Below, piece after piece: positions 4,506-18,190 of a stretch of 64,000 nucleotides of DNA; the first letter of the stretch is position 1; the number at the start of each line of letters is the position of its first letter. The stretch is taken from the NCBI RefSeq assembly GCF_008831155.1, contig NZ_WBKB01000003.1:124001-188000 (forward strand). The letters are read 5' to 3'. The notes under the pieces were generated by a model. The model ran no database searches. It had not been told where the DNA came from and worked only from the letters and a program-made list of their open reading frames with translations. Source of the stretch: Gulosibacter chungangensis. Lineage in GTDB: Bacteria; Actinomycetota; Actinomycetes; Actinomycetales; Microbacteriaceae. The translations under genes were made by a program, and so were the position numbers.

Positions 4506-5795
4506 CTAGAGGCGCGCGATCTCTTCGATGTCTTCCTCGAATTCCGCGTTGACTTCGGCGGAGACCGTCGTACGCGTCTGCGCGGTGGCGGTCAAAAAGT
4601 CGTCCAGGGTCGGGCCGCTGGAGGTATCCTCAGTTGCTACAGCTCGCTCGAGTGCGGTTTGCGAGGCGCTGCGCGCTGCGAACTCAATATCGGCGGGGGA
4701 GAAGCCTTCGGTGGCCTGCACGAGCGCGTCGAAGTCGAGCTCCGGCGCCGACTTTTCCGGCACGAACCCTTCCCAGATCGCCCGTCGCGCTGCGGCGTCG
4801 GGCAGACCAATCGGAATCACATAGTCGAAGCGCCCGTGCCGCAGGAACGCGGGATCCAGCGCTCGGATAAAGTTTGTCGCGCAGATCAGCAGCCGTCCCG
4901 GCTTTTCGCGGAAGGCCGGGATTAGCTTCAACAACTCATTCGTCACGCCTTGCATGGGTGAGGGCGGCTCGCCGCCTCGCTTTACCGCGATCTCTTCCAC
5001 TTCGTCAATAAACACCACCGCGTGCTCGAGGTGTTCAATCTTCTCGAATGTCTCGCGGAGCTCACCCGCAAGTCCCTTGGGGGATGCGGCGAGGCGGGAT
5101 GGGAAAACTTCCACAAACGGCCATTCCAGCCTCGAGGCGATGCCCTTGGCAAAGGTGGTCTTGCCGGTTCCCGGAGGGCCAAAGAGCACGATTGCGCGGG
5201 GAGGTACGACGCCAAAATCCTGCGCGAGGTCAGGGTCCGAAAGGGGCAGCACAAGTCGCCGCTCCAGGATCTGCTTTTCCTGCTGCATCCCACCGATGTT
5301 GTCCCAACGGTCGCGGGCAAGCATCCGTCCGCCCAGGTCACGCAAGAGCGCGAGTTCCTCCTGGCTCACCGGCACCTGGCGTTCGAAATATCGCAGGTGG
5401 CGCTTATCGGCATAGCCCGCGCGAGTGAGGGACTGCACGTGCTCCTCGCCATCGGGGACTAAAATCGACACGCGCTGGATGCCGAGGGCAGCGAGCCGCT
5501 GTTCGGCCGCCCCGAGCATTGCCCGGCTAATGCCGCGGCGCTGCCACGCCTTCGCCACGGCAAAAAACACGATCCACGCCTGGTCGTGCGCCGCACGGGC
5601 GATCGTTGCGCCGACCACTTCGTCACCGACCACTGCGACTATCGCGGTATCCACACGCGAGGACGCGAGTACCTCACTCAGTGAGTAGACGGGCTCGGTA
5701 CCCGTGGCTCGGTATTCTTCCCAGAGCTTGAGCAGTCCGTCAACATCGGTCGGTTGGAGATCGCGAATGCGCCAGTTCGTCACGTGTGGCCCCAT
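4506..5795 (-). CDS. GNAT acetyltransferase fused to AAA+ ATPase
   Basis: Residues ~8-140 are a GNAT domain (acetyl-CoA loop around KAWQRRGISRAML, residues 82-94). Residues ~163-410 are a classic AAA module close to FtsH/Cdc48/spastin types: Walker A GPPGTGKT (206-213), Walker B VVFIDEVEE (260-268), sensor-1 CATN (305-308) and second region of homology with Arg finger in RHGRFD (319-324). The C-terminal helical lid includes GFSPADIEFAARSA. All key ATPase residues are present, so it should hydrolyse ATP as an oligomer. The fusion suggests energy-driven remodelling of an acetylated target, which is inference. No protease domain or membrane segment is seen. It is a single-gene unit transcribed away from the MFS/TetR pair. 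Confidence 0.88.
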   Translation of the reverse strand: MGPHVTNWRIRDLQPTDVDGLLKLWEEYRATGTEPVYSLSEVLASSRVDTAIVAVVGDEVVGATIARAAHDQAWIVFFAVAKAWQRRGISRAMLGAAEQRLAALGIQRVSILVPDGEEHVQSLTRAGYADKRHLRYFERQVPVSQEELALLRDLGGRMLARDRWDNIGGMQQEKQILERRLVLPLSDPDLAQDFGVVPPRAIVLFGPPGTGKTTFAKGIASRLEWPFVEVFPSRLAASPKGLAGELRETFEKIEHLEHAVVFIDEVEEIAVKRGGEPPSPMQGVTNELLKLIPAFREKPGRLLICATNFIRALDPAFLRHGRFDYVIPIGLPDAAARRAIWEGFVPEKSAPELDFDALVQATEGFSPADIEFAARSASQTALERAVATEDTSSGPTLDDFLTATAQTRTTVSAEVNAEFEEDIEEIARL

Positions 5796-5880
5796 ACTTC
5801 TTCGTAGTCTGGTGAGTGGTACTCGCTAGATTACGTGGAAATATGGGGCCACGGTTCGGCTTCGCGCGAAGACGCTTGGC

Positions 5881-7542
5881 TTATTCCTGCTTAGGGCGTG
5901 AGTCCAGAACTTCCTGTTCCTGAGCCTCACCAAAGGTGAGGTTCTCTTGGATGCGGATGGCACCGGTGGTCACCGGAAGGTGCCCGTCCGAGAGTGTGTC
6001 CGCCACGACTTCCTCGCGCTCGATCTTCGTGGCCAGTGGCACGACCTTAATGAAAGCAACCATCAGCAAGCTTGCGATCACTAGCGGCACCATGAAGAGG
6101 AAGATCGGCATGAGGGCTTCGTTATAGCCATGCACGACGACCGAACGGACTTCATCCGGAAGGGAATTGACGAGGTCCGGGGTAAGTGAACTTACGCCGT
6201 CGCTTGGGGCCGCCGCAGCGGGCAGGTTTTCGGTGAGGATCGAACTGAGTCGGCTGACAAAGAGTGAACCCACGATGGCGGAGCCGAGGCTGCCGCCGAC
6301 CTGGCGGAAGAAGTTGTTTGCGGCGGTTGCGGTACCGACCACGCGGTTTGGGAAGGTGTTTTGCACGACTAGCGTGAGTACCTGCTGCGCGAGGCCCAAG
6401 CCGACACCAATGATGCCGAGGTTGACGCAGACCAACCAGGTGGGCGTCTCATACGTGACGAAGGACAGCAATCCAATGCCCATGGCAAGAACAATCGTGC
6501 CGAGGATCGGCCAAAGCTTGTATTGCCCGGTGCGCGAGATCAGCATCCCCGTGAGCACCGACACGATCAACATGCAGGCCATCATGGGAATCATCAAGAA
6601 ACCCGCGTCCTGCGGGGTCGCCCCAACTGCCATCTGGAAGTAGGTCGGCATATAGCCGATCGCGCCAAACATTGGCACGGCGATGAGCAAACCCGCGATG
6701 GTCGGCAGCGTGAAATTGCGCTTCTTGAACATTGACATCGGAATGATGGGGGACTGCGCACGGGACTCGGCCCAGATAAAGAGGCCCGCAAAGACAAGGC
6801 AGCCGATGCCGAGGCCGATGATCTGCGGGGACAGCCACGCGTAGGTCGCGCCGCCCCAGGTTGCCATCAGGATGAGGCAGCTGGTGGCAATTGCGAGCAG
6901 TGCCATGCCGAGGTAATCGAGTTTGGGTCGTTCCGCAACGCCACGCTTCGGAAGGCGCAGCAGCACAATGGTCGCGATGAGTGCGATGGCGCCGAGGGGT
7001 ACGTTCATCCAGAATGCCCAGCGCCATCCCGGGCCCTGGGTGAGCCAGCCACCGATGAGCGGACCGGCCACGGAAGAGAACGCGAACACGCCGCCCATGA
7101 TGCCCATGTACTTGCCTCGCTCGCGCGCGGGCACCACGTCGGCGATGGCAGCCTGCGACAGAATCATGAGGCCACCACCACCGAGGCCCTGAATCAGCCT
7201 GGCCACGATGAGGATTTCCATGGTTTGCGCGAGGCCACCGATAACCGAGCCTACGAGGAATACCGAGATTGCCCCGAGCAGCACCGGCTTTCGTCCGAGC
7301 AGGTCGCTGATATTGCCGTAGATCGGCATCATGATGGTGGCGGAGAGTAAGTAGGCCGTGGTCACCCACATCATGTGCTCAACGCCGTGCAATTCGCCGA
7401 CGATCGTCGGCAGCGCGCTCGACAGCACCATTTGGCTCAGGGATGCGAGCAGCATGATCACCATTAGGGTGACAAACAGCGGGAGAATGCGTCGCGGGGT
7501 CAGCGTGGTGGCGGACTCCGCAGGTTTCTTTAGGTCAGCCAT
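5881..7542 (-). CDS. MFS drug exporter, DHA2 (14-TMS) family
   Basis: The 553-residue protein has about 14 hydrophobic segments and DHA2 marks: ALPTIVGELHG in the first periplasmic loop, GNISDLLGRKPVLL (MFS motif A) in loop 2-3, and RLIQGLGGGGLM (motif B). Family members are proton-driven exporters of hydrophobic cations, antibiotics or other toxic compounds; the substrate cannot be read from sequence. The start codon lies inside the 3' end of the upstream tetR gene (13-base overlap), so the two are translated from one mRNA and probably controlled by that repressor. The C-terminal ~60 residues are a polar cytoplasmic tail. Confidence 0.9.
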   Translation of the reverse strand: MADLKKPAESATTLTPRRILPLFVTLMVIMLLASLSQMVLSSALPTIVGELHGVEHMMWVTTAYLLSATIMMPIYGNISDLLGRKPVLLGAISVFLVGSVIGGLAQTMEILIVARLIQGLGGGGLMILSQAAIADVVPARERGKYMGIMGGVFAFSSVAGPLIGGWLTQGPGWRWAFWMNVPLGAIALIATIVLLRLPKRGVAERPKLDYLGMALLAIATSCLILMATWGGATYAWLSPQIIGLGIGCLVFAGLFIWAESRAQSPIIPMSMFKKRNFTLPTIAGLLIAVPMFGAIGYMPTYFQMAVGATPQDAGFLMIPMMACMLIVSVLTGMLISRTGQYKLWPILGTIVLAMGIGLLSFVTYETPTWLVCVNLGIIGVGLGLAQQVLTLVVQNTFPNRVVGTATAANNFFRQVGGSLGSAIVGSLFVSRLSSILTENLPAAAAPSDGVSSLTPDLVNSLPDEVRSVVVHGYNEALMPIFLFMVPLVIASLLMVAFIKVVPLATKIEREEVVADTLSDGHLPVTTGAIRIQENLTFGEAQEQEVLDSRPKQE

Positions 7543-9384: not shown

Positions 9385-11013
9385 ATGACAACTTTGCAAT
9401 GGGACGCCATCATTATCGGAGGCGGCTTCGCGGGCCTCAGTGCAGCACAAACGCTCGGCCGCTCCCGACGGCGGACGCTGGTGCTCGACTCCGGGCGGCC
9501 CCGGAACCGGTTTTCCGAACACGCGCACAACATTCTGGGTCTGGACGGCACGCCGCCGGCCGACCTGCTGGCGAGCGCTCGACAGCAAGCCGCCGAATAC
9601 GGGATTGAGTTCGTAGCGGCGGAAGTGAGCGAGGTCACTGTGCTCGACCAAGGCATCCGAATCCTCGCTACCGATGGTCGAGCCTTCGAGGCCCGCACGC
9701 TGCTGGTGGCCACGGGGCTCACCGATGTGTTGCCGGAGATCCCGGGCCTCGCAGCGCGGTGGGGCAAGAGTGTGCTGCACTGCCCGTATTGTCACGGTTG
9801 GGAAGTCGCCGACCAGCGCCTCGGCGTGCTGGTGCTCTCTGAGATCGGATTTCACCAGGCCCAGCTGATTCGCCAGTGGAGCGAAGACCTTACGGTGTTC
9901 CTCGGTGAGGGGATGCACATCCCGGCAGACATTAGGTCTCGGCTCGAGGTACGCGGAGTTCGAATCATCCCGTCGCCCATTACCGAATTGCTCGGCGAGG
10001 GGACTCAATTGAACGCCGTGCGCACAGCCGACGGTACGCAAATTCCACTCGACGCACTCTTCCTGCTCGGGAAGATTCAGCCAAACGACGGCTTCCTAGG
10101 CGCACTGCAGTTGGCTCGCACGGAGACACCAATGGGATCATTCATCAGCATCGACGAGACGGGAAGAACGAGTGTGGAACGAATCTGGGCGACCGGTAAC
10201 GCGGTGAACCCGGGCGCGGCAATCCCACAGGCTGCTGGTGATGCGGCCTTCGCGGCGGCGCAAATGAACCTGTGGCTCGTCAACGACGATACTGATCGCG
10301 CTCTTGCGGATGCGGATGCATCCTGGCCCGAAATCGCGCCGGCGGAGTACTGGGATGACCGATATTCCCAACAGGCGGCGATGTGGTCGGGTCGCCCCAA
10401 CGCCGCGCTCGTCAGCGTTGTCGGCGATCTCACGCCCGGCACGGCACTTGATTTGGGATGTGGTGAAGGCGCGGATGTGCTCTGGCTTGCGCAGCAGGGG
10501 TGGGATGCGCTGGGGCTCGATATTTCGACCGTCGCGGTTGAGCGTGCCACGGCGGCTGCGGATGCGCTGGTTGAAATTTCTGGCCGAGCACAGTTTCGGC
10601 AGGCGGATCTTTCTGAGCTGGTCGCCTTCGAGGGGCTGGCCACCTTCGAGGGGTCGGCACGCTTCGATCTGGTAACCGCGAGCTTCCTCCACTCAACGGT
10701 GGAGTTGCCTCGCGCCGAGATACTGCGGCGTGCAAGCGGACTCGTGGACGAGGGAGGACACCTATTGATCATCACGCACGCGGCGCCGCCACCGTGGTTT
10801 GCCGGCGGTGAGCAGCGCGAAAACTATCACTCGGGTGAAGGGCATCATCATAGTTTCCTGACCCCACAGGAGGAGATTGAGGCACTGGCTCTCGATTGTG
10901 CCGCCTGGCGGGTGGTTCTCGCCGAGACCCGTACTCGCGCGGCAAAGGACCCGGACGGGAACAGCGCTGTCCTTGAAGATGGCGTGGTGTTACTGCAGCG
11001 AAAGTCTCAGTAA
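9385..11013 (+). CDS. thioredoxin-reductase-like flavoprotein fused to class I SAM methyltransferase
   Basis: Residues 1-300 are a two-dinucleotide-binding flavoprotein: FAD motif GGGFAG (12-17), redox pair CPYC in HCPYCHGWE (133-136) and the FAD-closing ATGNAVNPGAAIPQAAGDA. The usual NADPH motif GxGxxA after the CxxC is absent (here GVLVLSEIGFHQAQL), as in dithiol oxidases of the GliT/HlmI kind, so it may not use NADPH. Residues ~320-542 are a class I methyltransferase (motif I LDLGCGEG, 355-362; acidic end of beta-2 GLDIS) resembling TehB/thiol methyltransferases. The two activities in one chain suggest processing of one thiol- or chalcogen-containing substrate (inference). The divergent XRE-cupin gene is the likely regulator. 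Confidence 0.9.
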   Translation: MTTLQWDAIIIGGGFAGLSAAQTLGRSRRRTLVLDSGRPRNRFSEHAHNILGLDGTPPADLLASARQQAAEYGIEFVAAEVSEVTVLDQGIRILATDGRAFEARTLLVATGLTDVLPEIPGLAARWGKSVLHCPYCHGWEVADQRLGVLVLSEIGFHQAQLIRQWSEDLTVFLGEGMHIPADIRSRLEVRGVRIIPSPITELLGEGTQLNAVRTADGTQIPLDALFLLGKIQPNDGFLGALQLARTETPMGSFISIDETGRTSVERIWATGNAVNPGAAIPQAAGDAAFAAAQMNLWLVNDDTDRALADADASWPEIAPAEYWDDRYSQQAAMWSGRPNAALVSVVGDLTPGTALDLGCGEGADVLWLAQQGWDALGLDISTVAVERATAAADALVEISGRAQFRQADLSELVAFEGLATFEGSARFDLVTASFLHSTVELPRAEILRRASGLVDEGGHLLIITHAAPPPWFAGGEQRENYHSGEGHHHSFLTPQEEIEALALDCAAWRVVLAETRTRAAKDPDGNSAVLEDGVVLLQRKSQ

Positions 11014-11108
11014 CTCTCATGGAGTGCGCACCGCACGCCAAGTAACGGCTGACAGAGTAATGCGTGCTTGTGGCGCAAACGCGTCAACACGAAACGGAGA
11101 GGAGCTCA

Positions 11109-11312
11109 ATGGGTTTCGAAGATCGACTAGGTAATAAGGGCGAAGAGCTCGCTGGCAAAGCCAAGGAAGCACTTGGCAACGCATCCGACAACGACGAACT
11201 CCGTAATGAAGGGAAGGCAGACCAGGCGTCTGCCGGACTGAAAGACAAGATTGAGGACGTCAAAGACACGGTGACGGACGCCATCGACAATCTTCGCGGG
11301 AAGAACAACTAA
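11109..11312 (+). CDS. CsbD-family stress protein
   Basis: A 67-residue hydrophilic, highly charged protein with the CsbD signature (GNKGEELAGKAKEALGNASDNDELRNEGKADQ). The family is induced by general stress in many bacteria; its molecular role is unknown. ATG 11109 follows an excellent ribosome site (GGAGAGGAG, 11096-11104). A strong hairpin follows, so the gene is its own unit. Confidence 0.88.
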   Translation: MGFEDRLGNKGEELAGKAKEALGNASDNDELRNEGKADQASAGLKDKIEDVKDTVTDAIDNLRGKNN

Positions 11313-13200: not shown

Positions 13201-13243
13201 AAACCGCGGTCCGGGTGAAAGAGTTCACTCGGACCGCGGTTTT
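13201..13243 (+). terminator. Rho-independent terminator after the mscR operon
   Basis: Arms AAACCGCGGTCCG and CGGACCGCGGTTT enclose an inner stem GTGAA/TTCAC and end in a T run. It separates the operon from the convergent telA operon. Confidence 0.88.
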
Positions 13244-13308: not shown

Positions 13309-14550
13309 TTAGAGCGTGAGTTCCGGCGGGAGCTTGCCGGGACCAACCTGTCCGCTTGTTTCAGCCTCGCGCGCAAGTTCGTTTTCACGCGAACGTTCGA
13401 TGTACGGGGTCGCGCGTTCCAGCTGCTGGCTGAGCGATTCAATCGAGGTCGCAAAGTTCTGGTTCGCGGTGCTCCGGAACTGCTCGACCTGGTCGATTGC
13501 CGTGAAGACATTGTCATAGGCCTTCTGCAGGGTCTCCATTGTGACGCCCGAAGTGACCGCCTGCTCCTGGATGCGAGCCGAATTGTCACGCAGCATCGCG
13601 GAGGTCTGTTCGATCATCGCGTTCGTGGTGGAGTTCACCGCGTCGATCTGGTCGAGGACAATGCGCTGGTTTTCGAGGGCCTGAGCGACAACTACCGCGG
13701 TGCGCAGGGCGGTCATGGTGGTCGTCTTGGCGCGCTCGACACCATCCACCAGCTTGAGGTTATTGTCCTGGATGAGATCCATCGACAGGTAGGACTGCAC
13801 GCTCACCGCGAGCTGTGTCTGCACATCCATGTGTCGCTGACGGATCGCGAAGAGCACATCCTGTTCGAGTGCCTTCGCCGCCTCAACCTCACCCTGGCCG
13901 CTGAGCTGCTCCATCTTCCGCAGTACGGACTGGTCAAGTTCGGTCAGCAGTGCGCTGAGCTTATTCAGCTCACCCATGGCGTCCCAGAGGGTGCGTCGCT
14001 CGAGGGCGAGCGCGGCGTTGTCCTTACGGAGATTGTCCTGGCCACGTTCGAGTGCGTGCAGCACCGCGTTCAGCTGCTCCTGATTCGACTCGTACTGGCG
14101 GAAATACCGCTTGGCTCCCCGCGAACCGGGCAGCTTGCTGAGGAAGCGTCCAAAAGCGCCCTGATCATTCGGCTGTAGGTCTTCGACGACATTGCGCAGG
14201 TCAACCAGCGACTTCGACACCTCGATAGCCTGACCGCCGTCGCCTTCCTGACGGGACTGCGCCAGGGAACGTTCAAAGAAGCGGCCGGTGGCGTTCGTGG
14301 TCTGCTGGATCTCCTGGCGGGCGACCTGCGAAATTGCTCGCACCTGCTCGGTGTATTCGGGAGTCTTCGGGGTCAGCGTCGCGAGGTGACCGACCCAAGT
14401 GTCGGCTCGGTGTTGCAGATCGAGCGCGGTTGCCGGGTCCATATCGGGAAGCATCGAGTGCGCCTTGGCGGGCTCCACTGCGCTGACCGGCGGTGTGGCT
14501 TCGATTGGTTCGAGCTCTTCAGGTGTCGGTGGCTGCAGCTTCTGGTTCAT
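13309..14550 (-). CDS. telA: TelA-family protein (toxic-anion resistance)
   Basis: A 413-residue, almost entirely alpha-helical and soluble protein with the TelA signature around KYF-like AKRYFRQYESNQEQLNAVLHALERGQDNL and the C-terminal AKTTTMTALRTAVVVAQALENQRIVLDQI. TelA proteins accompany resistance to tellurite and other envelope stresses; the mechanism is unknown, and the name should not be read as proven tellurite resistance. It is the last gene of a four-gene operon, 7 bases after the XpaC-like gene, a pairing recurrent in the wider Ter/TelA literature. The Pro-rich N-terminus (1-40) is probably disordered. Confidence 0.9.
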   Translation of the reverse strand: MNQKLQPPTPEELEPIEATPPVSAVEPAKAHSMLPDMDPATALDLQHRADTWVGHLATLTPKTPEYTEQVRAISQVARQEIQQTTNATGRFFERSLAQSRQEGDGGQAIEVSKSLVDLRNVVEDLQPNDQGAFGRFLSKLPGSRGAKRYFRQYESNQEQLNAVLHALERGQDNLRKDNAALALERRTLWDAMGELNKLSALLTELDQSVLRKMEQLSGQGEVEAAKALEQDVLFAIRQRHMDVQTQLAVSVQSYLSMDLIQDNNLKLVDGVERAKTTTMTALRTAVVVAQALENQRIVLDQIDAVNSTTNAMIEQTSAMLRDNSARIQEQAVTSGVTMETLQKAYDNVFTAIDQVEQFRSTANQNFATSIESLSQQLERATPYIERSRENELAREAETSGQVGPGKLPPELTL

Positions 14551-14557
14551 ACATCAC

Positions 14558-15274
14558 TCACTTCTGAGGTTTGTTAGGGCGGTCTGTTGATTCAAGCGGC
14601 TGGCTCAGATCAAGCACGGATTGCGTGCCGGACTGTTCGAAACGCATCTTCAAGAATGCCGTGTGTTCCTGGATGCTTTGCGTCTTGCCGCGCACAACGT
14701 CATTTTCGATCCGGTCAAGGACTTCCGAGAGCACCCCGAGCTGCTCATCCAGCGAAGCAACATTCTCTTCCACCTGTGCCTTCGAACCGGAGCCCGAAAA
14801 CGAGGAATGCATCCGATCGTTTTCGATCGCGTGATTCACGATAGTCGGCAGATAGTCGGTGCCAAGCACGTGCAGCATGTGGATATCGCCATCGATCTGC
14901 TTACGCTGCTGGATTTCTTCCAAAGCACCGAGCGTGCGCAGTCGACCGAGGACCTGACCGATTCGCTCATCCACCCCGGTACTTGCCCACAGTGGTCGGC
15001 TCTGCAGCCTTCGCATCGCACTGTCCATCGCCGTGACTCGGGTTGCGACGGCAGTGAGGGCGTCTTCGACCGTCACCGGTACCACCGAAAGAATCTCGAG
15101 CTTTGGTGGCGCGGTGGGAGCAAGGAGAAGCCCGGTGCCGATGCCCACGGCGATTCCAATCCCGAGCCCCAGCGGCCACATCACGCCGAGGAAGAAAATG
15201 CTCGCCGCGGCGGCGGCAACCCCAGTGATGATGCCGAAGAAGCATCCTGCAATCAGGCGATTTGCCGGGCTCAT
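14558..15274 (-). CDS. XpaC-like membrane protein
   Basis: Residues 5-52 hold two adjacent hydrophobic segments with a GMW-like turn (FFGIITGVAAAAASIFFLG and a GIGIAVGIGTG glycine-rich helix); the remaining ~185 residues are helical and cytoplasmic, containing GTDYLPTIVNHAIEN and DEQLGVLSEVLDRIENDVVRG. The layout fits XpaC-type partners of TelA, though the match is by general features and neighbourhood. The start overlaps the previous gene's stop by 4 bases (15271-15274), so it is cotranslated. Confidence 0.7.
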   Translation of the reverse strand: MSPANRLIAGCFFGIITGVAAAAASIFFLGVMWPLGLGIGIAVGIGTGLLLAPTAPPKLEILSVVPVTVEDALTAVATRVTAMDSAMRRLQSRPLWASTGVDERIGQVLGRLRTLGALEEIQQRKQIDGDIHMLHVLGTDYLPTIVNHAIENDRMHSSFSGSGSKAQVEENVASLDEQLGVLSEVLDRIENDVVRGKTQSIQEHTAFLKMRFEQSGTQSVLDLSQPLESTDRPNKPQK

Positions 15275-16857
15275 AGATAGCCCCGAATCTCGCGGAAGGC
15301 GGCCGCGAGTGAGTCGCTCGTCGCGTCGAAGAGGCGGCCACCGGTGAGCTCGGCGATGGCCTCCATCTCTTCGCGGTTCGAGTCGCCGAACTGGACGGTG
15401 TACACAGGGATGGTTGCCGCTTCGGGATGCGTCCGTAGGTAATTCTCGTGCCAGGCTTCAAACTCAGCCAGGTCCATGCCCTCATTACTCTGCCCGTCGG
15501 TGAAGAGCACGATGGATGAAATCGAGCCGTCGCCTGCCCCTTCGGCAGCAAGCTCGTAGGCCTCCGCAAGCGTCGTGTACACCGAGGTACCGCCGACGGG
15601 TTCAAAGCCATCGATATGCTGGCCGATTTCGGCCATCGTGCTCTCATAGGCGGACTGGTCCGATGGCAGATCAAAGGTTTCGGTGGATTTGATCGAACTG
15701 GCGAACTCGAGGAAGGTGATTTGCTCTCTGGGCTGCAGTTTCAAGAAGGCATTTGTGCCTTCGGCTTCCACACCGGCAAGGACCCCGAGGGCCTCGTTGA
15801 GGTCCTCCATCCGATCGCCATCCATTGAACCGGACGTGTCGATCGCGAAAACCATATTCGAGGGTTTCTTTGCCTCGGCGAGCCAGGTCTCAAGGAGCGA
15901 CTGCACGGTCTCAAGTTGGTTCGGGAAGGGCAGCTCAAAGACATTCGCATCCGCAGCTGGGGGAGTTGCGCTGGTGCGACGGTGCGTGTCCTGCGCGATC
16001 TGCTCCTGCACCTCGGCCGACAGCAAATAGTCGGTCATCAGGCCGAAATCCTCGGTGGTCTTTTCATCCGCACCGCGCAGCAACGCGAGCGGGTAGTCAC
16101 TCGTGATCACACCATCCGAGGGGATCACGATCGTCAGCGGCTCACCGTCAACGGTCACATCCTGCAGCACCGATTCGTAGTTGAAGATGCCGTCTACCAC
16201 GGTCGGGTCCGCAACAAACTTATCGAGTAGCCAGCCGGAGGAACCGGATGCGAGCTGTTGCCCCTTCGCAAACTGCTGCAGCGGTTGGGTGGTCGCCGCG
16301 ATATCCGTCGGTTCGAGCACGGTACCGGTACCAGAGAGCGCGGTTGCGAGCTGTACGAGGGTGGTGAATCCCGAGTTCGATGAGATGGGACTTGTCATCC
16401 CGTAACTCAGCTCGCCGGCGTTTACCGCGTCGATGATTTCCTGCCAGGTGGGTGGTGCATCCGTCGACCAGCCGAGCGCACTCGCAACCTCGGGACGCAA
16501 GCCCAGCACCACTGGTGAGCGCATGATGGATTCGCTCGAAGTAATGAGATCGGCACCTCCCGGGAAGAGCGAGAGGTATCGGTTCGAGGGGAACCAGATG
16601 GCATCCCAGGCTAGATCCGCTTCGGCTTCGAGGAGTGCCTCGGTGCCGTCGAGCGTGCCAATGTACTCGAATTCGATCTCGATACCCGTGACTCGGGTCA
16701 TCTCTTCCAGGATGGGTTCGAGGTCACGAACCTCCGAACCGGCGAGGATGCGGATCGGGTCACCCGAGCCGCCCACCATGCCGCAGCCGGCGAGCGCGAA
16801 GGGAAGCACAATGGCGAGCGCCAACGCCTTCACCAGTGCCTTCAACAGGGTCTTCAT
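15271..16857 (-). CDS. lipoprotein combining solute-binding-protein and vWA domains
   Basis: A lipobox ALAGC (Cys25) anchors a 528-residue extracytoplasmic protein. Residues ~35-300 resemble class II extracellular solute-binding proteins (IRILAGSEVRDLEPIL, DAIWFPSNRYLSLFPG, SGWLLDKF). Residues ~333-525 are a von Willebrand A domain with an intact MIDAS: DTSGS (340-344), Thr424 in GGTSVY and Asp454 in FTDGQ. A metal-dependent adhesion domain fused to a binding protein implies recognition of a surface ligand or partner protein rather than simple uptake; no permease is nearby. It overlaps both neighbours by 4 bases. Confidence 0.88.
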   Translation of the reverse strand: MKTLLKALVKALALAIVLPFALAGCGMVGGSGDPIRILAGSEVRDLEPILEEMTRVTGIEIEFEYIGTLDGTEALLEAEADLAWDAIWFPSNRYLSLFPGGADLITSSESIMRSPVVLGLRPEVASALGWSTDAPPTWQEIIDAVNAGELSYGMTSPISSNSGFTTLVQLATALSGTGTVLEPTDIAATTQPLQQFAKGQQLASGSSGWLLDKFVADPTVVDGIFNYESVLQDVTVDGEPLTIVIPSDGVITSDYPLALLRGADEKTTEDFGLMTDYLLSAEVQEQIAQDTHRRTSATPPAADANVFELPFPNQLETVQSLLETWLAEAKKPSNMVFAIDTSGSMDGDRMEDLNEALGVLAGVEAEGTNAFLKLQPREQITFLEFASSIKSTETFDLPSDQSAYESTMAEIGQHIDGFEPVGGTSVYTTLAEAYELAAEGAGDGSISSIVLFTDGQSNEGMDLAEFEAWHENYLRTHPEAATIPVYTVQFGDSNREEMEAIAELTGGRLFDATSDSLAAAFREIRGYL

Positions 16858-18062
16858 TGGGGAGTACCATCCTCGTTCGTGGTGACGCTGTCATCTGCCG
16901 GATCGACTTCTTCCGGGCGCGCGGGTGGCGCCCCGGAGAGGTCGTAGGCCGAACTGATTTGCGCGAGCAGCGCATCCAACACCTCATAGCTCGGCTCAAC
17001 GGCGAGATTCACGAATTCTGAGGTGGTCGGATAATCCGTGAGCTGCTGCTTGTCCAGGAAGGTCTGGAAGGCTGCGGCGTTTTGTCCCTGTGGGCGGAAA
17101 CCGTGTTCGGCCAGCAGTGTCGCGAGTTCCGGATCGGTCTCGAGCAGTTCCATGACCTCCTGCCCGGCTTCCGAGAAGGTGACACCGGTGTGGACCGAGA
17201 AAATCGACGGGGTCGGGTAGGCGAGCACCATGCCGTCTTGGATGCGCGAATTCTCGCCCAGCTGCTCCTCGAGGAACTGGCCCTCATAAATCATGACCAT
17301 CGGCACGGCGCCCATGCCCTGCGAGAGATAGTCGTCGAAGGGAGCCGTCGAACTCGCTCCCGAATAGCCCTGCGAGATAAAGAGCTTGGTGAGTAGGTCC
17401 ATGTGCGCATTCGCTTCGCTCGCACTTGAGACCACCGCATTGTTATTAAGCACATATGCGGCGAGAGAGAGGTACATTCCGGCGGAGTTGGACGTTCGCA
17501 CATCGGTGGATGTAATGAGCACGCTGCGGGGTGAGTTATACGCGGTCGCAGCACCTTCGAGCTCATTCCACCGAATATCTTCTTCGACCAACTCGAGATA
17601 GGCGGCCATATCAAGATTCCACCGGCCGGATGCATCCTTCGACGCTGCGCCATTGGTCTCCAACAGCGTCATGATCGGTTCGAAGGTGGCGATCGCAAGG
17701 GGCGAGAAGAACGGTTTGTGGGTCGAGCGGACCGCGCTGCCGTGAGTGTTCGCGATATTTTCGGCGGCGATTTCGGATGCGGGGAAAGCGAAATCGTTTT
17801 CGGTCACGCCGTCGAGTGAAGCCATTCGCCAGGAGCCGGATTTTGTGACGCGCACGTCATAACCGTGGCTTTCAAAGACCTCTTGGACGGCCGGATCTTC
17901 AAAGAACGCGGCCTTTTCAGAGCTGACGACCCCCTCAACCACGGTGAGATTGAACTTAGGGCTGCCACCACGACCGATGCCGGTGAGTTGGATGACGAGG
18001 ACTGCGATAATCCCCACCACAAGGAGGCCAATGCCAATGAAATGCGGTGTTCTGAGTTTCAA
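16854..18062 (-). CDS. membrane-anchored binding-protein-like protein of the TelA operon
   Basis: First gene of the operon; 402 residues. One N-terminal membrane segment (about residues 8-28, FIGIGLLVVGIIAVLVIQL) leaves the rest outside. The body resembles periplasmic binding proteins (LTVVEGVVSSEKAAFFEDPAVQEVF, PFDDYLSQGMGAVPMVMIYEGQFL, HTGVTFSEAGQEVMELL). The C-terminal ~35 residues are acidic and Pro-rich. No vWA domain is present. Its similarity in plan to the binding-protein half of the next gene suggests that the two act as a pair. The regulatory region upstream (18063-18140) shows no obvious operator. Confidence 0.7.
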   Translation of the reverse strand: MKLRTPHFIGIGLLVVGIIAVLVIQLTGIGRGGSPKFNLTVVEGVVSSEKAAFFEDPAVQEVFESHGYDVRVTKSGSWRMASLDGVTENDFAFPASEIAAENIANTHGSAVRSTHKPFFSPLAIATFEPIMTLLETNGAASKDASGRWNLDMAAYLELVEEDIRWNELEGAATAYNSPRSVLITSTDVRTSNSAGMYLSLAAYVLNNNAVVSSASEANAHMDLLTKLFISQGYSGASSTAPFDDYLSQGMGAVPMVMIYEGQFLEEQLGENSRIQDGMVLAYPTPSIFSVHTGVTFSEAGQEVMELLETDPELATLLAEHGFRPQGQNAAAFQTFLDKQQLTDYPTTSEFVNLAVEPSYEVLDALLAQISSAYDLSGAPPARPEEVDPADDSVTTNEDGTPQ

Positions 18063-18140
18063 CGAGGTGCTGCCTTCCCCAAGCCGGTGCCCGGCATTGC
18101 AGCAGTCGCGGGTGAACGTTAGGGAACCCGGAGGGAAACG

Positions 18141-18175
18141 AACGAGGGCTCAGCACGGTGTGCTGAGCCCTCGTT
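18141..18175. terminator. strong hairpin between the ALS-like gene and the telA operon
   Basis: Perfect 16-bp arms AACGAGGGCTCAGCAC / GTGCTGAGCCCTCGTT around a GGT loop, 16 bases downstream of the acetolactate-synthase-like stop. Confidence 0.85.
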
Positions 18176-18190
18176 CGGTAGTTTTCAGTC

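Follow-up and report, generated by a model that had tools for sequence, protein, structure and literature searches.

What can two extracytoplasmic binding proteins do in an operon that also encodes TelA and a small membrane protein, and neither a permease nor an ATPase? The operon lies within a stretch of 64,000 nucleotides (the window) of a Gulosibacter chungangensis contig, NZ_WBKB01000003.1. Its genes and the two inverted repeats that frame them are as follows, in the direction of transcription.

18139..18177: perfect inverted repeat, 18-nt arms and 3-nt loop, between the upstream TPP-enzyme gene and SBP1.
16854..18062, minus strand: SBP1, 402 aa, TTG start; N-terminal membrane anchor (hydrophobic 3-33); predicted type-II solute-binding-protein (SBP) fold, about 38-376.
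15271..16857, minus strand: SBP-vWA lipoprotein, 528 aa; signal peptide, lipobox C25; SBP domain about 31-333, vWA domain about 329-528 with a MIDAS.
14558..15274, minus strand: gene 3, 238 aa; hydrophobic N-terminus 6-55; helical, predicted cytoplasmic C-terminal domain with a YLP motif.
13309..14550, minus strand: TelA (PF05816), 413 aa, soluble; Pfam 234.6 bits against a cut-off of 30.
13201..13242: inverted repeat, 19-nt arms (95% complementary) and 4-nt loop, between TelA and a convergent metallo-beta-lactamase-fold gene.

The sequence-only reading of this DNA described four overlapping or nearly abutting minus-strand genes between 13309 and 18062, and all four open reading frames are found at these positions. 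SBP1 overlaps SBP-vWA by 4 nt (16854-16857), SBP-vWA overlaps gene 3 by 4 nt (15271-15274), and the gap between gene 3 and TelA is 7 nt. The upstream repeat satisfies the terminator scan rule on the plus strand only, and the downstream repeat is not flagged by that scan. The promoter scan of the locus, with 2 found against 1.3 expected, is uninformative. The topology first proposed, with binding modules outside, a membrane link and a soluble TelA inside, fits the hydrophobicity of the proteins: the hydrophobic stretch of gene 3 is long enough for a two-helix hairpin, and TelA has no such stretch. TelA, SBP-vWA and gene 3 each occur in one copy in the host genome, where the own-genome search finds no TerD and a single TerC homologue on another contig. 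Elsewhere in the window, 9385-11013 encodes a fusion of a pyridine-nucleotide-disulphide oxidoreductase with a methyltransferase domain (TehB match 23.9 bits, cut-off 20.4), and 11064-11312, which lies upstream of genes for a zinc-dependent dehydrogenase and a metallo-beta-lactamase-fold protein, encodes a CsbD-like general stress protein (53.1 bits).

Both binding modules model as type-II SBPs. Pfam recognizes both halves of SBP-vWA (VWA, 42 bits, cut-off 23.8; SBP_bac_8, 31.4 bits, cut-off 27), and the best Pfam score of SBP1, 14.6 bits, lies below its cut-off while its predicted fold is clearly that of an SBP. Profile comparison shows SBP1 to be a paralogue of the SBP half of SBP-vWA (over 259 columns, hhalign gives a probability of 98.7 and E 1.5e-16), and the loops GSE, SNS, SS and YE align between them. 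The lipobox cysteine C25 is invariant in the 50 rows of alignment A9. The MIDAS is complete, as first read, its residues D340-x-S342-x-S344, T424 and D454 being identical in 58 of 58 aligned sequences. The alignments used here (A5-A7, A9-A10) omit matches that end short of 90% of the profile or begin after its first 15%, rows almost identical to another (over 80 or 85%), and one genus relative, L024. The RefSeq name 'Substrate-binding and VWA domain-containing protein', carried by the Variovorax homologue, denotes the same domain pair with no function attached, and the phrase is absent from the open-licence papers searched.

Helix N-termini are where SBPs hold their ligands. Invariant residues, which are not independent of one another, are found at helix N-termini in both models more often than expected (15 of 38, expected 7.6, P 0.002; 10 of 21, expected 5.0, P 0.011). 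The top fold neighbours of the models include sulfate, ferric, thiamin and hexose-phosphate binders, together with 6lkg, an entry titled two-component signal-transduction protein, which we take to be HptA. According to the available text of PMC8399564, HptA is an SBP-type primary sensor that signals via the membrane kinase HptS, and by analogy HptA-HptS offers a precedent for an SBP as a sensor rather than as part of an importer. The Staphylococcus aureus HptA-HptS-HptR system has a histidine kinase output, whereas the window set is kinase-free and has two SBPs, one with a vWA domain.

The four genes travel together. An alignment-based scan of genome contigs yields at least 569 SBP-vWA relatives among at least 593 matched stretches; a single-protein scan of the contigs gives 21 pattern matches, none of them a relative. 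The locus set comprises the best 80 of these at least 569 relatives, mostly from Actinomycetota, with 8 kb flanks where the contig permitted. All four genes are present in 56 loci, all but TelA in 12, only the two SBP genes in nine and SBP-vWA alone in three, with some of the losses due to contig ends (for example in L026, L029 and L093). Co-occurrence of the four genes in these loci exceeds chance. The genes of every four-gene locus (56/56) lie on one strand with every gap below 250 bp, arranged either as in the window (SBP1, SBP-vWA, gene 3, TelA; 17/56) or as SBP1, TelA, SBP-vWA, gene 3 (39/56). Another actinobacterial family, f53, has a third order: SBP-vWA, a PF10112 protein, SBP1, TelA. 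The full set is also carried by two Betaproteobacteria, and one of the 56 four-gene loci, L089, is titled as a Chloroflexi MAG. Twelve of the 80 loci have no recognised gene 3; some of these are cut by contig ends, and the Nocardiopsis-type loci seem truly to be without it.

Within the genus, SBP-vWA occurs in seven of 11 genomes and TelA in exactly the same seven, the other four having neither. Of six genus neighbourhoods fetched, five have the complete set, ordered as in the window; the remaining one, a 4-kb contig, leaves no room for TelA. Among the five is L024, whose SBP-vWA (5040-6623) is spread over three frames, through frameshifts or draft errors, and whose other three genes are intact. 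Across a spread sample of the phylum, SBP-vWA matches at E up to 1e-30 in 20 of 396 genomes, with near-full-length matches at ten places in nine genomes. The expectation that the genes would be kept together is therefore borne out, and this adjacency reaches far outside the genus.

Nine plasmid-collection records have a match, of which seven were inspected. The four genes are complete in the Nonomuraea, Variovorax and Sphaerotilus records; by these profiles the Deinococcus record is without TelA and the Miltoncostaea record has SBP-vWA only, and the Thiodictyon and Pseudanabaena records are remote, with different arrangements. On the Variovorax replicon (L014, 1-13503), the four genes have flotillin/OB-fold genes on one side and Wadjet JetABC-type genes on the other. 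In Thiodictyon (L184, 3653-7684), a second SBP and a small protein come after the SBP-vWA protein, and Pseudanabaena (L183, 1569-5260) has two VWA-domain proteins in tandem.

Clustering of the non-overlapping, longest-choice ORFs of 84 loci gives no flanking family in more than 17 of them, and that most recurrent family lies on both sides and strands. The four genes thus form a self-contained cassette; weakly recurrent neighbours could be missed, since choosing the longest ORF admits false antisense ORFs in G+C-rich genomes. The sequence-only reading also held that the set has no permease or ATPase; by ORFs and Pfam, none is present among the four genes.

Gene 3 had been called XpaC-like, a name that is retained here only as a remote likeness. 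The protein has nothing over the Pfam cut-off and no PF10112 match at E up to 1, and PF10112 does not occur among the best 25 of the 34 families matched by 41 gene-3 relatives (alignment A7), the last of which match one member each. Membership of PF10112 (XpaC/Halogen_Hydrol) was accordingly rejected on Pfam. The remote link is kept on other grounds: the gene-3 C-terminal profile scores 9.0-12.0 bits against three of four PF10112 proteins, where the best shuffle reaches 5.9, and PF10112 proteins occupy the gene-3 place in f53. A PF10112 match is found in eight of 59 genomes of that family (four over the cut-off), in all eight directly after SBP-vWA; seven of these genomes have all four genes and the eighth is cut by a contig end. 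Comparison of gene 3 with the f53 PF10112 proteins by hhalign gives a probability of 0.3 for the C-terminal parts and, at full length, a probability of 45 with the hydrophobic region alone aligned. On these mixed scores, the putative relationship between gene 3 and XpaC is weak and remote.

Another relationship of gene 3 emerges from TelA loci that have no SBP genes. Twelve such loci were assembled with larger flanks, eight from outside the genus by a TelA search and four from genomes of TelA-less SBP-vWA loci. The gene-3 C-terminal profile (A7c) matches the TelA neighbour in 11 of them (E 8e-9 to 1e-42), with no match in L179. Seven of these 11 partner proteins have no strongly hydrophobic stretch (maximal 19-residue mean 0.77-1.26) and four have one (1.53-2.11); the three that were scanned have no Pfam match. 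TerD is present in four of the 12 loci, and in two of these (L175 and L177) the gene order is TerD, TerD, TelA, partner domain, TerD, with overlapping frames for one TerD in L177. Pfam identifies TerD (PF02342) in L161 and L163, stretches within those TerD-TelA loci. The partner-domain proteins beside TelA lie at 2530-3051 in L161, 2629-3138 in L163 and 2556-3485 in L162, those of L161 and L163 being soluble and inside TerD operons. In L176 (5418-7206), two gene-3-like proteins in tandem directly follow TelA. With the domain in 11 of 12 loci, TelA regularly has it as a partner, in soluble form alongside TerD and anchored to the membrane in the window set.

On one point the sequence-only reading is not supported as it stands: TelA is not an obligate part of the set. 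It is absent from 24 of the 80 loci, a few of them cut by contig ends, and a search of the genomes of 15 of these 24, whose completeness is not stated, finds no TelA in 13. TelA is thus dispensable: the two SBPs, in most cases together with gene 3, can function in its absence, and TelA cannot be the sole output.

The set may be compared with known systems that share some of its parts. The Firmicutes XpaC-TelA pairs (xpaC-yaaN of B. subtilis, lmo1966-lmo1967 of Listeria) likewise place TelA beside a small protein with a hydrophobic N-terminus and a helical cytoplasmic domain; unlike the window, no SBPs or vWA domain are described there, and gene 3 falls below the PF10112 threshold. The third gene with XpaC-TelA in Vescimonas encodes a TPM protein, again unlike the window set. 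In the Actinomycetota TerD-TelA operons, too, a protein carrying the gene-3 C-terminal domain is the immediate neighbour of a TelA from the same family; there the partner is soluble, and TerD is found where the window, in a genome without TerD, has SBPs. Taken as TelA with TerD, a Ter-type stress system is not what the window encodes; taken as TelA with the partner domain, it is. ABC importer SBPs share the fold of the window SBPs and have an operon-encoded permease and ATPase that are missing here.

As far as the available excerpts of these papers go, xpaC-yaaN is a core member of the sigma-W regulon (PMC3498285), lmo1966-lmo1967 is induced by bacteriocin and its lmo1967 mutant is more sensitive to nisin and tellurite, the latter 2-fold (PMC12791056), xpaC is up 7-fold in a resistant E. 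faecium liaR mutant (PMC10269926), and TelA is placed among the sub-membrane components of Ter systems (PMC7824862). The TelA mechanism is stated as not known in the excerpted part of PMC12791056, and TelA and XpaC do not occur in that of the PSP survey PMC11237479. The open-licence literature searched, a scope outside which most subscription journals lie, yielded no paper on the four-gene set. Parts of the set may already feature in a 2012 comparative genomics study of Ter-dependent systems by Anantharaman, Iyer and Aravind. The module is real and under-described, and belongs with the TelA/XpaC and Ter-type stress modules rather than in a new category.

The quartet most likely represents a kinase-free extracytoplasmic sensor that acts on a membrane-associated TelA stress effector as one envelope-spanning module, a reading for which we see about an even chance. 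SBP1, anchored in the membrane, and the lipoprotein SBP-vWA would sit on the outer face of the cytoplasmic membrane and bind a common small ligand or related ones, probably anionic. The metal-binding vWA domain may then make a ligand- or metal-dependent contact that joins the two SBPs or reaches the hydrophobic gene-3 hairpin. Gene 3 would relay the change inward to its helical domain in the cytoplasm, the usual TelA partner, and TelA, recruited or released at the membrane, would protect or remodel the envelope. Adjacency in three gene orders and in Betaproteobacteria, as well as the joint presence or absence of SBP-vWA and TelA across the 11 genus genomes, argues for such a sensor-effector. 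The SBP paralogy, the invariant residues at helix N-termini, the fold neighbours, the gene-3 domain beside TelA in SBP-less loci and the lack of TerD from the host genome speak for it too. By analogy, so may the XpaC-TelA pairs elsewhere, which are envelope-stress genes and from which the envelope-stress direction of the reading is taken; because the link between gene 3 and PF10112 XpaC is weak, the Firmicutes phenotypes may not carry over. That weak link, the TelA-less loci and the loci without recognised gene 3 all count against the sensor-effector.

The paralogy of the SBPs, the gene-3 domain beside TelA in SBP-less loci and the dispensability of TelA together make the quartet look like a Ter-type output with an extracellular input. 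On gene content, the SBP pair would replace cytosolic TerD as the input to the pair of TelA and its partner domain. Stated in full, this more specific proposal is tentative and somewhat more doubtful than not: a kinase-free Ter-type module in which paralogous SBPs, one with a vWA domain, would sense a probably anionic extracellular ligand and control the TelA/partner effector via a small membrane hairpin protein.

A static envelope scaffold would need neither a small ligand nor signalling. The SBP and vWA domains would bind a protein or polymer and tie wall or surface proteins to the membrane, with TelA strengthening its inner face. vWA domains with a MIDAS are commonly adhesive, and a distant SBP-vWA gene (L139, 4900-9363) is followed by genes for a membrane protein and, by Pfam, the MurJ lipid II flippase. 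TelA and XpaC phenotypes elsewhere also involve wall-active agents, as excerpts of PMC12791056 and PMC10269926 report. Against this, the invariant residues of both SBPs are concentrated in the loops that bind ligand, a feature for which two paralogues serving purely as scaffold would have no use, and the scaffold is a possible but unlikely reading.

Improbable as well is extracellular scavenging or detoxification, in which the SBP pair would capture a toxic oxyanion or metal complex on the outside and hold it off, TelA forming the next line of protection. The fold neighbours that bind sulfate, ferric ion with carbonate and hexose phosphates would suit such a role, as would the naming of TelA for toxic anions and the 2-fold tellurite effect in the Listeria telA mutant (PMC12791056, in excerpt). 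One or two membrane-bound sites per complex, though, provide little capacity, and the constancy of gene 3, which crosses the membrane, points to a coupling with the cell interior. That the SBPs are orphan importer parts, supplying substrate to an ABC permease whose gene lies at another locus, agrees with the predicted fold of both proteins and is nevertheless highly improbable: no recurrent permease or ATPase family adjoins the set in the 84 loci compared, the genes that accompany the SBP genes are TelA and gene 3 instead, and one SBP is fused to a vWA domain. Least probable of all is an anti-phage defence system, for which the tie of Ter genes to phage resistance in the available part of PMC7824862 and the nearby Wadjet genes of one Variovorax replicon speak, and against which stand the lack of any PADLOC family above chance (sole match E 0.055), flanks without a shared defence family, and viral contigs that gave 14 pattern matches and no SBP-vWA relative.

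In conclusion, TelA has been tied for years to tellurite, nisin and cell-wall antibiotics, and the sensor-effector module would give it a sensor that can be tested. The gene-3 domain, which has no Pfam match and is a neighbour of TelA in this set as well as in TerD operons, marks out a shared TelA core that lends itself to testing. A conserved module in which TelA is linked with two ligand-binding proteins opens an approach: to find the ligand, and to ask whether TelA moves.
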